DNA of 64,000 bases from Sulfurimonas sp. endosymbiont of Alviniconcha boucheti (lineage in GTDB: Bacteria; Campylobacterota; Campylobacteria; Campylobacterales; Sulfurimonadaceae). The stretch lies in the NCBI GenBank assembly GCA_021766785.1, contig JAICBP010000083.1, positions 147,056 to 211,055 of the forward strand, given 5' to 3'. Positions within the stretch are counted from its first letter, which is position 1. Every line of letters begins with the position of its first letter. This document shows, in pieces, positions 8,251 to 51,848 of the stretch. The notes under the pieces were generated by a model. It did no database searches. It was given only the letters and a program-made list of their open reading frames with translations, and had not been told where the DNA came from. The position numbers were made by a program, and so were the translations under genes.

Positions 8251-8314
8251 ACTCTATGAAGGGATTGAACTTTCTAAAAGTTTTCAAAGATTTTAAATAA
8301 CATAGGAGCATAAC

Positions 8315-8890
8315 ATTTTTAAATTTGTACTACTTATTTTTCTCCTCATATCCAACCTCTTTGCAATAGTAGAGATAAACAGTGCCTCATCCTCACAGCT
8401 CTTAGAGCTCAACGGTATAGGTAAGGCAAAAGCACAAAAGATTATCGCCTACAGAAAACTCAATGGCTGCTTTAAAAGTATAGATGAGCTAACTCGTGTT
8501 GAGGGTATTAGCAAAAAAATCCTCTCAAGCAATAGAGCTACACTAAAACTAGGACTCTGTACAAAAGCTAAAAAACCTATAGAGTCCTCCCTCTCTTCCC
8601 TTAAAAATGTTCTACTAGATCCCGTTAACGTTATCTTTGTACTCTTTATGTTTATCCTTACATTTTTAGAACTCAAGACAAAAAAAGATTTCAAAGCTCA
8701 GATAGTTAGTATGGGTGTGCTTGGTACCTTTGTAGGTATATTTATAGGTCTTCAAGCATTTGATCCTAGCGATATTACAAATAGTGTTAATGACATCCTA
8801 ATAGGTCTTAAAACTGCATTTTTTACCTCCATCATAGGTATGACCCTCTCAACAATACTCTCACTTCGAGAAAAATTTACCAATGAGTAA
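8315..8890 (+). CDS. Signal peptide + ComEA-like helix-hairpin-helix domain fused to a three-TM MotA/TolQ/ExbB-like proton channel; probable ATT start
   Basis: Continuous frame traced codon by codon: (M)FKFVLLIFLLISNLFAIVEINSASSSQLLELNGIGKAKAQKIIAYRKLNGCFKSIDELTRVEGISKKILSS...VNVIFVLFMFILTFLELK...VSMGVLGTFVGIFIGLQAF...ILIGLKTAFFTSIIGMTLSTIL; AGGAG at 8304-8308, 6 nt before ATT. Confidence 0.8.
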   Translation: MFKFVLLIFLLISNLFAIVEINSASSSQLLELNGIGKAKAQKIIAYRKLNGCFKSIDELTRVEGISKKILSSNRATLKLGLCTKAKKPIESSLSSLKNVLLDPVNVIFVLFMFILTFLELKTKKDFKAQIVSMGVLGTFVGIFIGLQAFDPSDITNSVNDILIGLKTAFFTSIIGMTLSTILSLREKFTNE

Positions 8891-9545
8891 ACAAGCAAAT
8901 AATGAGTGGATGAGCATCTCTGATATGATGTCGGGACTAATGCTTATCTTTCTCTTCATCGCCATTAGCTATATGGTCAGAGTAGAAGCTGAAAAACAGG
9001 AGATGAAAGATATCGCCTTAGAGTACAGAGATACTAAAGCAGATCTAAATGAAGCACTTTTCACAGAGTTTGAGAAAGATTTTAAAGCTTGGGATGCTAC
9101 TGTTACAACAGATAATGCTGTTGTCTTCTCCTCACCAGAAGTACTCTTTGCTGTCTCTAAAAGTGAGATCAATAATAAATTTAAAACTATCCTAGATGAA
9201 TTTTTTGTAAGATATTTGAACATAATAAGCTCTGCTAAATATAGAGATGAGATAGAAGAAATACGGGTAGAGGGATATACCTCAAGAAGCTGGAAAAATT
9301 CTACTTCTGAAAAAGAGAGATATCTCAAAAATATGAAACTCTCCCAAGAACGAGCTTATAATGTTCTCTCCTACTGTTATAATCTTGATAGTGATATAAT
9401 TCAGAAGCAAAGAGAGTGGTTAGAACAACATCTCCGAGCCAATGGTATGGCGTTTGCAAAACCTCAAGAGGGAGAAAAAGCAAGAAGAGTAGAGTTTCGC
9501 ATACTTATGAAGAGTGAAGAGAGAGTAGATGCACTGCTACAATGA
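8883..9545 (+). CDS. MotB/ZorB-like OmpA-domain protein, partner of the preceding channel
   Basis: Overlaps the preceding gene by 8 nt; N-terminal SISDMMSGLMLIFLFIAISYM (TM with Asp) and C-terminal OmpA-like NMKLSQERAYNVLSYC...LRANGMAFAKP...ARRVEFRI. Confidence 0.8.
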   Translation: MSKQANNEWMSISDMMSGLMLIFLFIAISYMVRVEAEKQEMKDIALEYRDTKADLNEALFTEFEKDFKAWDATVTTDNAVVFSSPEVLFAVSKSEINNKFKTILDEFFVRYLNIISSAKYRDEIEEIRVEGYTSRSWKNSTSEKERYLKNMKLSQERAYNVLSYCYNLDSDIIQKQREWLEQHLRANGMAFAKPQEGEKARRVEFRILMKSEERVDALLQ

Positions 9546-49259: not shown

Positions 49260-49858
49260 TGTATAGAACTTTTGGAAAAAGATTATTTGATATTATAGCA
49301 ACTACAATTGGTATGCTTTTGTTAGCTCCGGTTATGCTTATTATTATTCTTTGGATAAAGTTCAGCTCCGAGGGTCCTCTCCTCTATGTTCAAAAACGAG
49401 TAGGAAAAAATTTTAAAGAGTTTGATCTATATAAATTTAGATCTATGGTAGTTGATGCTGATAGAAATGGACCTAGTGTTACAAGTGGGGATGATAGTCG
49501 TATTACCAAAGTGGGTAAAATTATACGTCACACAAAGATAGATGAACTTCCGCAACTGTTCAATGTCCTTAAAGGAGATATGTCTCTTGTAGGACCTAGA
49601 CCAGAGGTGATGAAGTTTGTTTCTCAAAAAAAAGAGAGTTATGTAAAAGTTCTTAGTGTAAAGCCAGGCATAACAGATACTGCAGCCATAGAGTTTCGTG
49701 ATGAAGAGAGTATAATGGAGCAGTATGATGATAAGGAAGAAGCATATATTAAATATGTATTGCCTCAGAAAATAAAGTTGTATTATATGTATATAGAGAA
49801 TATTACATTTGTAAATGATGTAAGGTTAATACTGCAAACACTAAAGGTGATAAAATGA
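49259..49858 (+). CDS. Undecaprenyl-phosphate sugar-1-phosphate transferase
   Basis: ORF MYRTFGKRLFDIIATTIGML...DLYKFRSMVVDADRNGPSVTSGDDSRITKVGKIIRHTKIDELPQLFNVLKGDMSLVGPRPEV. Confidence 0.93.
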   Translation: MYRTFGKRLFDIIATTIGMLLLAPVMLIIILWIKFSSEGPLLYVQKRVGKNFKEFDLYKFRSMVVDADRNGPSVTSGDDSRITKVGKIIRHTKIDELPQLFNVLKGDMSLVGPRPEVMKFVSQKKESYVKVLSVKPGITDTAAIEFRDEESIMEQYDDKEEAYIKYVLPQKIKLYYMYIENITFVNDVRLILQTLKVIK

Positions 49859-51603
49859 ATATTGACAAACGCCTACTAAACATACTAGTCATCATATTGT
49901 TAACATTTAGTACCTTCTGGTGGACATTTTTTATCTTCCATCTTCCTTTTGACCTCCATGCTATCTTAGTGGTTCTTTTTGTTCGTGTTCTTGCATCATT
50001 TATCATACTCAAGGACTATTCACTCGCTTGGAGTAAGGTAACACAGAAGACATTTTTGATGAAGAGTATAGTGTATGGGAGTGCTTTTGTGGTCTATTTA
50101 CCTATACTATATGGTGAAGTTTGGATCTATTTTTTAATTTCTGAACTCTTTATATATCTTTTTTCTATAAACTTTTCCATGTATCTTTACTACTATTATA
50201 TTAACAGAAGTCAAGTGCAAAAGACTAAAACAGTTGTTATTTATGGTGCTGGAAAGGCAGGGATAAAACTAGATTCTGAGTTTAAAAATACGGAGTATAA
50301 AGTAAAATATTTTTGTGATGATAATGCAATTTTACATGGGAGGAGTATAGATGCTATCTCTATCCTCTCTAAACGGCAGCTTTTAAAAAAGGCAACACAA
50401 ACAAAATATGATCTTCTTGTAATCGCTATGCCGAGTGCGGAGAAAAGAGTTATATCTGAACTCTACAACGAACTGCATCCTCATTTTGAGCAGATAAAAG
50501 TGCTTCCTACTTTAGAGAACATCCTTCAAGATAAAAAGTTCAGTGCACAACTCAAAGATATATCAGTAGAGGATCTCCTCTCTCGCTATCCAGCAGATTT
50601 AGATAAAAAAAAGATCTCCTCTTTTATACATGGAAAAACTATTCTTATAACTGGTGCAGGTGGAAGTATAGGAAGTGAGATAGTTCGCCAGTGCATCAAG
50701 TATCAAGCAGTAAAACTTATTTTAGTTGATCATAGTGAGTTTAATCTTTATGAGATTGAGCAAGAGGTGAATACTGAAAATGTAGTTCCAGTTATGCAGA
50801 GTGTAAATAATAAACTTGATATACAAAAAACATTACAACTCTATAAACCAGAGATAGTGATCCATGCCGCCGCATATAAACATGTGCCACTAGTAGAAGC
50901 AAATATCGCAGAAGCGATTAAAAACAATGTGCTGGGAACGAAAAATGTTATAGACTGTGCCATAGAGAGTGGCGTTCAAAAAGTTGTACTTATCTCAACA
51001 GACAAGGCAGTACGCCCTACAAATGTCATGGGAACAACAAAGCGTATCTGTGAACTTTATGCACAAAATAGCAATGGTCAAGGTACTGATATTGTAGCCG
51101 TACGTTTTGGGAATGTACTTGGCTCAAGTGGTAGTGTTATACCTAAGTTCAAAAAGCAGATAGCAGAGGGTAAAAACATTACTGTAACTCATCCTGAAAT
51201 TACAAGATATTTTATGCTTATCCCTGAGGCATGTGAGCTAGTACTTCAAGCTGGTGCTATAGGTACTGGTGGTGAGATTTTTATACTTGATATGGGAGAA
51301 CCTATAAAAATAGTAGATCTAGCTAAAAAGATGATTGAGCTTAGTGGAAACGCCAATATAGAGATAGAGTTTAGTGGTTTACGCCCTGGAGAAAAGCTCT
51401 ATGAAGAGTTACTTATAGATGAGACTAACTATACAACAGAGTATGACTCCATAACAGTTGCAAAACCAACACCTTACGAGCTCAATAAGCTCAACAAAGA
51501 TATAGAAGAGTTATTAAGCTGTGAAGATAAGCTCAAGAAATTAAAAGAGATAGTCCCAGAGTTTAATCATCAATTAAACAATTCTCAAAGGAAAACTATA
51601 TGA
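49855..51603 (+). CDS. Membrane-bound nucleotide-sugar 4,6-dehydratase (PglF/FlaA1-type)
   Basis: ORF with N-terminal TMs, ILITGAGGSIGSEIVRQCIKYQ, ISTDKAVRPTNVMGTTKR. Confidence 0.93.
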   Translation: MNIDKRLLNILVIILLTFSTFWWTFFIFHLPFDLHAILVVLFVRVLASFIILKDYSLAWSKVTQKTFLMKSIVYGSAFVVYLPILYGEVWIYFLISELFIYLFSINFSMYLYYYYINRSQVQKTKTVVIYGAGKAGIKLDSEFKNTEYKVKYFCDDNAILHGRSIDAISILSKRQLLKKATQTKYDLLVIAMPSAEKRVISELYNELHPHFEQIKVLPTLENILQDKKFSAQLKDISVEDLLSRYPADLDKKKISSFIHGKTILITGAGGSIGSEIVRQCIKYQAVKLILVDHSEFNLYEIEQEVNTENVVPVMQSVNNKLDIQKTLQLYKPEIVIHAAAYKHVPLVEANIAEAIKNNVLGTKNVIDCAIESGVQKVVLISTDKAVRPTNVMGTTKRICELYAQNSNGQGTDIVAVRFGNVLGSSGSVIPKFKKQIAEGKNITVTHPEITRYFMLIPEACELVLQAGAIGTGGEIFILDMGEPIKIVDLAKKMIELSGNANIEIEFSGLRPGEKLYEELLIDETNYTTEYDSITVAKPTPYELNKLNKDIEELLSCEDKLKKLKEIVPEFNHQLNNSQRKTI

Positions 51604-51848
51604 AACTTTTTACACTTCTTTTTTTTGCTGTAACATCTCTTGTTGCTGCTGTGGATATAAATAATGCGAGCAAATCAGAGCTCATGAACCTCAAAGGTAT
51701 AGGTGCAAAAAAAGCAGATGCTATCATTATGTATCGTAAAGATCACTGTTTTAAAGATGCTCAAAGTTTGAAGGCTGTCAAGGGGATAGGTGTAAAAACT
51801 GTAGCAAAAAACAGAGATAAGATAAAGGTTGGTGCTTGTAGAAAATAG
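51600..51848 (+). CDS. ComEA-like helix-hairpin-helix protein
   Basis: Signal peptide MKLFTLLFFAVTSLVAA then VDINNASKSELMNLKGIGAKKADAIIMYRKDHCFKDAQSLKAVKGIGVKTV. Confidence 0.9.
   Translation: MKLFTLLFFAVTSLVAAVDINNASKSELMNLKGIGAKKADAIIMYRKDHCFKDAQSLKAVKGIGVKTVAKNRDKIKVGACRK

Follow-up and report, generated by a model that had tools for sequence, protein, structure and literature searches.

Pili and a passive ratchet formed by ComEA are usually credited with the force for DNA uptake. In Campylobacter jejuni, a stand-alone homologue of ComEA, Cj0011c, binds DNA in the periplasm, and its knock-out lowers transformation 10-50-fold, according to earlier work as cited in PMC10046745; that study's own result is of a negligible part of Cj0011c in DNA uptake (PMC10046745). 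Among ion-driven motors, the type II ZorAB complex of a relative, Sulfuricurvum kujiense, has been solved by cryo-EM (PDB 8vvi); its ZorA rod is formed by residues 110-378, and Zorya defence requires both this rod and the effector nuclease ZorE (PMC11890865). No description of a ComEA domain on a motor of the MotA/ZorA type was found in the literature searched, in which few subscription journals were covered. The motor and the domain are each known already; what is new in the locus described here is their combination and its direction.

In the window (the whole stretch of 64,000 nucleotides that was analysed, from a Sulfurimonas sp. endosymbiont of Alviniconcha boucheti), this combination is encoded by a two-gene pair with galU upstream and hisF downstream (Table 1). 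A first-pass annotation of the same DNA had read one uninterrupted frame joining a signal-peptide-like N-terminus, a ComEA-type HhH domain and three transmembrane (TM) segments, overlapped by a partner gene with a TM Asp and an OmpA-like C-terminus, and the present analysis agrees on both genes. Two of the families that it had named score above their cut-offs, HHH_3 on residues 19-76 of the fusion (E=3e-17; 62.8 bits against a cut-off of 27) and OmpA on the partner (34.4 bits), and a third, MotA_ExbB, reaches 17.9 bits on the TM half, under its cut-off of 22.9. TIGR00426 (57.1 bits against a cut-off of 53.1) identifies the HhH as a ComEA-type domain; with TIGR01259, the model of full stand-alone ComEA, the fusion scores 60.6 bits against a cut-off of 152, its domain being fused to three TM helices. 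The TM half matches ZorA2 of PADLOC (2e-19, aa 89-182) and of NCBIfam (1e-12, short of the full-length cut-off). The partner has both the TM Asp and the OmpA-like domain of ZorB2, and the NCBIfam ZorB2 model gives it 165 bits, under the equivalog cut-off of 400.

Table 1. Features of the fusion/ZorB pair in the window.
Feature	Position	Strand	Basis
Shine-Dalgarno AGGAG	8304..8308	+	6 nt 5' of ATT start; read in sequence
HhH-ZorA fusion gene	8315..8890	+	single open frame, ATT start, 191 aa
Signal peptide, aa 1-17, conserved LFA cleavage-like site	8315..8365	+	alignment, residue counts
ComEA-type (HhH)2 domain, aa 19-82, invariant Cys52 and Cys82	8369..8560	+	Pfam HHH_3; TIGR00426; Foldseek; both Cys in 29/29
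Variable linker, aa 83-98	8561..8608	+	pN/pS about 0.9
TM1, aa 103-122	8621..8680	+	AlphaFold2 helix 103-122
TM2, GVLGTFVGIF motif, aa 127-147, invariant Thr138	8693..8755	+	AlphaFold2, residue counts; aligns with PDB 8vvi ZorA
TM3 helix, aa 154-189, invariant Thr171 and Ser172; protein end, no cytoplasmic rod	8774..8881	+	AlphaFold2, residue counts
ZorB-like stator gene, 220 aa, 8-nt overlap with fusion	8883..9545	+	PADLOC ZorB2 1e-79; PDB 8vvi_A 1e-43
Codon of transmembrane Asp14, ion-relay position, invariant	8922..8924	+	alignment
OmpA-like peptidoglycan-binding region, aa 88-169	9144..9389	+	Pfam OmpA, above cut-off

The AlphaFold2 model of the fusion (mean pLDDT 79) shows the HhH domain together with three long helices, in a relative placement that a pTM of 0.45 makes unreliable. 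Foldseek aligned it with Geobacillus ComEA (8dss; rmsd 0.9 A over 64 aa) and with type II ZorAB (8vvi; TM 0.79 by target), with E <0.001 for the ComEA match only. Lys and Arg residues average 3.3 in loop 119-130, are almost absent from loop 148-158 and number two at the C-terminus; loop 1 is basic and loop 2 acidic. These charges, the signal peptide with its LFA-like site and the two invariant Cys residues fit an orientation with the HhH outside, in the periplasm, where it had been placed before, and the C-terminus inside.

No ATG, GTG or TTG occurs in frame between the ATT at 8315 and an ATG at 8648, and a start at the latter had been raised as an alternative. We reject it: ATG 8648 falls within TM1 and is common only to the window and its two nearest relatives, and in another locus (L081) the first canonical start codon falls within TM2, so that translation from these codons is not credible. 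The homologous start position is occupied by ATT in 13 loci, ATC in five, ATG in seven and GTG in one, with one locus (L100) ambiguous. One locus with an ATT start (L097) has an ATG upstream, and in a few others (L078, L079, L086, L092 and L096) a different canonical codon lies close by; allowing for these, the loci without a canonical start 5' of the HhH are counted at about ten to thirteen. A Shine-Dalgarno match of at least 4 at similar spacing precedes 16 of the 18 ATT/ATC start positions versus 34 of 323 internal ATT/ATC codons (Fisher 5e-13), and ATA, although the commonest Ile codon of the fusion genes, is found at the start position in none (chance about 1e-4, relatedness ignored). In most fusion copies, the start is ATT or ATC, with a Shine-Dalgarno sequence at suitable spacing upstream; ATG opens almost all stand-alone ComEA genes. 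AUU is a known start codon in infC and pcnB. Weak initiation at a non-AUG start would be expected to result in a scarce motor. With such starts, the HhH half would escape standard gene callers, and annotated genomes probably lack it or show it shortened.

The full fusion was present in 9 of 37 same-genus genomes (within a sample of 60 related genomes) and in 5 of 400 genomes surveyed across the order, the five belonging to three families. About 30 fusion loci came out of a scan of 85,462 species, the records bearing the names Sulfurimonas, Sulfurospirillum, Helicobacteraceae or Campylobacterales, with ordinary ZorA proteins next among the matches; no record of the full fusion was found in plasmid and phage collections. 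ZorB lies downstream in 29 of 31 loci, window included, the exceptions being a contig end (L090) and a genome with ZorB on another contig (L088). In L093/G018, a 3.5-kb insert parts the fusion from ZorB (L061 4158-7660). The first-pass annotation had allowed that relatives might carry HhH and ExbB as split genes; they do not, and the homologues encode the fusion in one frame except in L095, L103 and L105, in which the frame is broken by sequencing error or decay. Mean column identity across 29 fusions is 70%, and pN/pS, in rough values with pS high, is 0.30 for the HhH, 0.22 for the TM part, 0.56 for the signal peptide and 0.88 for the linker; the fusion, including the HhH, is under purifying selection. 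In the ZorB tree, the 29 fusion-linked rows all fall in a single clade (100/99), and in the HhH tree, built on few columns, the fusion domains likewise separate as one clade from stand-alone ComEA (100/96). The fusion therefore has a single origin. An assembly or frame artefact is rejected on the strength of about 30 loci, one clade and purifying selection.

In the ZorB tree, the sister group of the fusion clade is formed by Sulfurovum rows (98/87), whose loci carry ZorE2 (5e-46) and are thus Zorya II (ZorA-B-E). This placement and the PADLOC match mark the TM half as a ZorA2 membrane core. The motor kinship proposed in the first-pass annotation, Tol-like or Zorya-like, therefore stands, with tree and profiles specifying Zorya type II with its rod lost; a plain Tol/Exb or MotAB system is rejected, the profiles being closer to ZorA2 and ZorB2. 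From the LGTF motif to the C-terminus, there are 56-62 residues in all complete fusions versus roughly 330-1140 in intact other ZorA proteins, which leaves the fusions without the long cytoplasmic rod. ZorE was detected in none of 11 fusion genomes tested, and in both of two Sulfurovum-type positive controls. The lack of flanking ZorC/D/E-like genes, already noted for the window, extends to the other loci: within the 31, no third gene is conserved beside the pair, as ZorC and ZorD or ZorF and ZorG would be. Because the pair has lost the ZorE nickase and all of the cytoplasmic rod and has gained a periplasmic HhH, it falls outside the definition of Zorya, and a complete Zorya system is rejected. 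Relative to the Sulfurovum Zorya II, the cytoplasmic output has been removed and an HhH placed before TM1.

Descent from Zorya II suggests that the pair might still serve anti-DNA defence, with a periplasmic HhH ring catching incoming phage or foreign DNA and its turning stalling or tangling this DNA before it reaches the cytoplasm. The patchy distribution from a single origin, over many genomic contexts, is consistent with such a role, as are genes for Uma2 (PADLOC candidate PDC-S03), PIN or MNT-HepT proteins in 11 of 31 loci versus 0 of 20 controls, which fits mobile accessory neighbourhoods. However, the rod and the effector nuclease on which Zorya defence depends are both missing, the search for ZorE in the fusion genomes gave nothing and no nuclease consistently adjoins the pair; we regard a defence role as unlikely.

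Several neighbouring arrangements were seen in the course of this comparison. An MNT-HepT toxin-antitoxin pair lies directly upstream of the fusion in L088 (2356-2995) and L103, two different contexts. In L071 (6804-9708) and L072 (6065-8969), ZorB adjoins a ZorA that is only about 210 aa long and has no HhH; both belong to a conserved cassette, together with two lipoproteins and small unknown genes, that resembles no Zorya type known to us. Helicobacter ZorAB genes, whose ZorA is about 800-900 aa long, lie directly behind ExbB and ExbD genes in L110 (6932-11410) and L121 (6976-11245), with no ZorE, ZorC or ZorD seen alongside. Thiovulum-type ZorAB (L104, L106 and L108) has a ZorA of normal length, and no ZorE match was obtained among the neighbours in L104 and L106.

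The surroundings of the fusion are also rich in glycan genes, including galU, PglF-like, PglB, GT4, UDP-sugar dehydrogenase, ManC and Wzz-like genes, and the order PglB-fusion-ZorB-PglF in L091 is operon-like. Such genes are found in 24 of 31 loci and in 14 of 19 independent contexts (a grouping of our own), versus 1 of 20 random 16-kb stretches (Fisher 9e-6), a contrast that is exploratory because the families scored were picked from the fusion loci themselves. These neighbours suggest an envelope or surface-glycan device, i.e., a Tol-like motor acting during glycan assembly, whose HhH would bind protein or polymer instead of DNA; the altered second hairpin (see below) is in line with it. However, five contexts have no glycan gene, and stand-alone ComEA genes of the genus adjoin the same glycan families, so that the fusion may just owe its location to the HhH donor; on the simplest reading, this donor was already resident in glycan loci. 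A glycan role seems to us as improbable as defence. In the window itself (49855-51848), there is a 4-nt overlap between a stand-alone ComEA gene (51600-51848) and a PglF-like dehydratase gene, and ComEA-type genes lie within glycan loci in many relatives (L012, L013, L015, L019, L025, L030 and others).

The first HhH hairpin, G-I/V-G, is intact in 28/28 fusions, Lys42 is invariant and Lys37 and Lys39 are nearly so. The second hairpin reads D/E-G-I/V-S in 28/29, versus K-G-I-G in most stand-alone ComEA of the genus. With the first hairpin intact and the second altered, engagement of DNA is likely but not assured, and the altered hairpin may mean that binding is weak or gone. Mean net charge of the HhH is +1.8 in fusions versus +5.6 in stand-alone ComEA, but charge was judged uninformative as a test of DNA binding, as HhH stretches of Gram-positive ComEA look near neutral. 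The HhH could also be a regulatory or assembly module only, for example a periplasmic cap closing the ring of a motor without a specific target: MotA/ExbB-family motors have acquired varied appendages (PMC12505986), and no output domain other than the HhH is visible in the ring subunit. Against this, the HhH is under clear purifying selection and keeps both Cys residues, the first hairpin and the lysines, which makes a cap very unlikely.

The pair has the polar pore residues and the stator Asp of 5:2 motors; because Thr138 and Ser172 (invariant, with Thr171, in 29/29 fusions) and Asp14 of ZorB are all conserved, the core should work as an ion-driven 5:2 motor. By analogy with its relatives, a ZorB dimer, held to peptidoglycan by its OmpA-like domain, would sit inside a ring of five fusion subunits, and protons or sodium ions passing Asp14 would drive rotation of this ring, as they do in ZorAB and MotAB. 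Without a cytoplasmic rod, the ring would bear five ComEA-type HhH domains around the ZorB stalk, just above the membrane. Going by the identity of this domain, they may grip periplasmic double-stranded DNA, which the motor would pull, wind or retain, in a powered counterpart of the passive ComEA ratchet that serves DNA uptake. Action on periplasmic DNA, for uptake or defence, had also been proposed in the first-pass annotation. We tentatively favour this reading, an inner-membrane motor derived from the ZorAB of Zorya II whose HhH ring handles periplasmic DNA for uptake, though at less than even confidence. It is placed above defence because what Zorya defence requires has been lost, and also above a glycan role; it is supported by an HhH that is ComEA-like by profile and fold, the ZorAB-type core, the predicted periplasmic side of the HhH, the preserved first hairpin and lysines, the earlier knock-out result for Cj0011c, the absence of ZorE and a stand-alone ComEA in 8 of 31 fusion loci versus 0 of 20 random stretches. 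A link with competence genes through ComEC was uninformative, ComEC being present in all 45 well-assembled relatives and universal in the order. Against uptake, the second hairpin is altered, PMC10046745 assigns Cj0011c a negligible part, the fusion is an accessory gene, at the frequencies given above for genus and order, unlike a core uptake gene, and its position in glycan loci is left unexplained by DNA uptake. A more specific version, in which the Zorya-derived stator turns the five-ComEA ring to pull or wind transforming DNA through the outer membrane, a defence motor thereby inverted into a DNA importer, is rather doubtful. The pair shows that a Zorya motor can trade an output in the cytoplasm for one in the periplasm; it is also a small natural system for finding out whether ion-driven motors can work on periplasmic DNA.

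With ComEA and Cj0011c, the fusion shares the HHH_3 domain and the signal peptide, with the stand-alone ComEA of the genus the same two Cys residues and with Geobacillus ComEA the fold over 64 aa. Unlike them, its HhH is tethered to a motor subunit and has a modified second hairpin, and its start is mostly non-AUG; the oligomerisation domain of Gram-positive ComEA is absent from it. TolQ/ExbB and MotA, with TolR/ExbD/MotB, belong to the same superfamily of 5:2 ion-driven motors, and the three-TM, N-out topology is that of TolQ/ExbB, but the fusion is closer in sequence to ZorA2 than to the MotA_ExbB family, ZorB has an OmpA-like domain and no TonB/TolA partner lies next door. Zorya type II is alike in its homologous ZorA membrane core and ZorB and in its motor residues, and its ZorE2-bearing Sulfurovum loci are the sister group of the fusion clade; the fusion differs from it in being without rod, ZorE or other effector, and in carrying an HhH domain before TM1.
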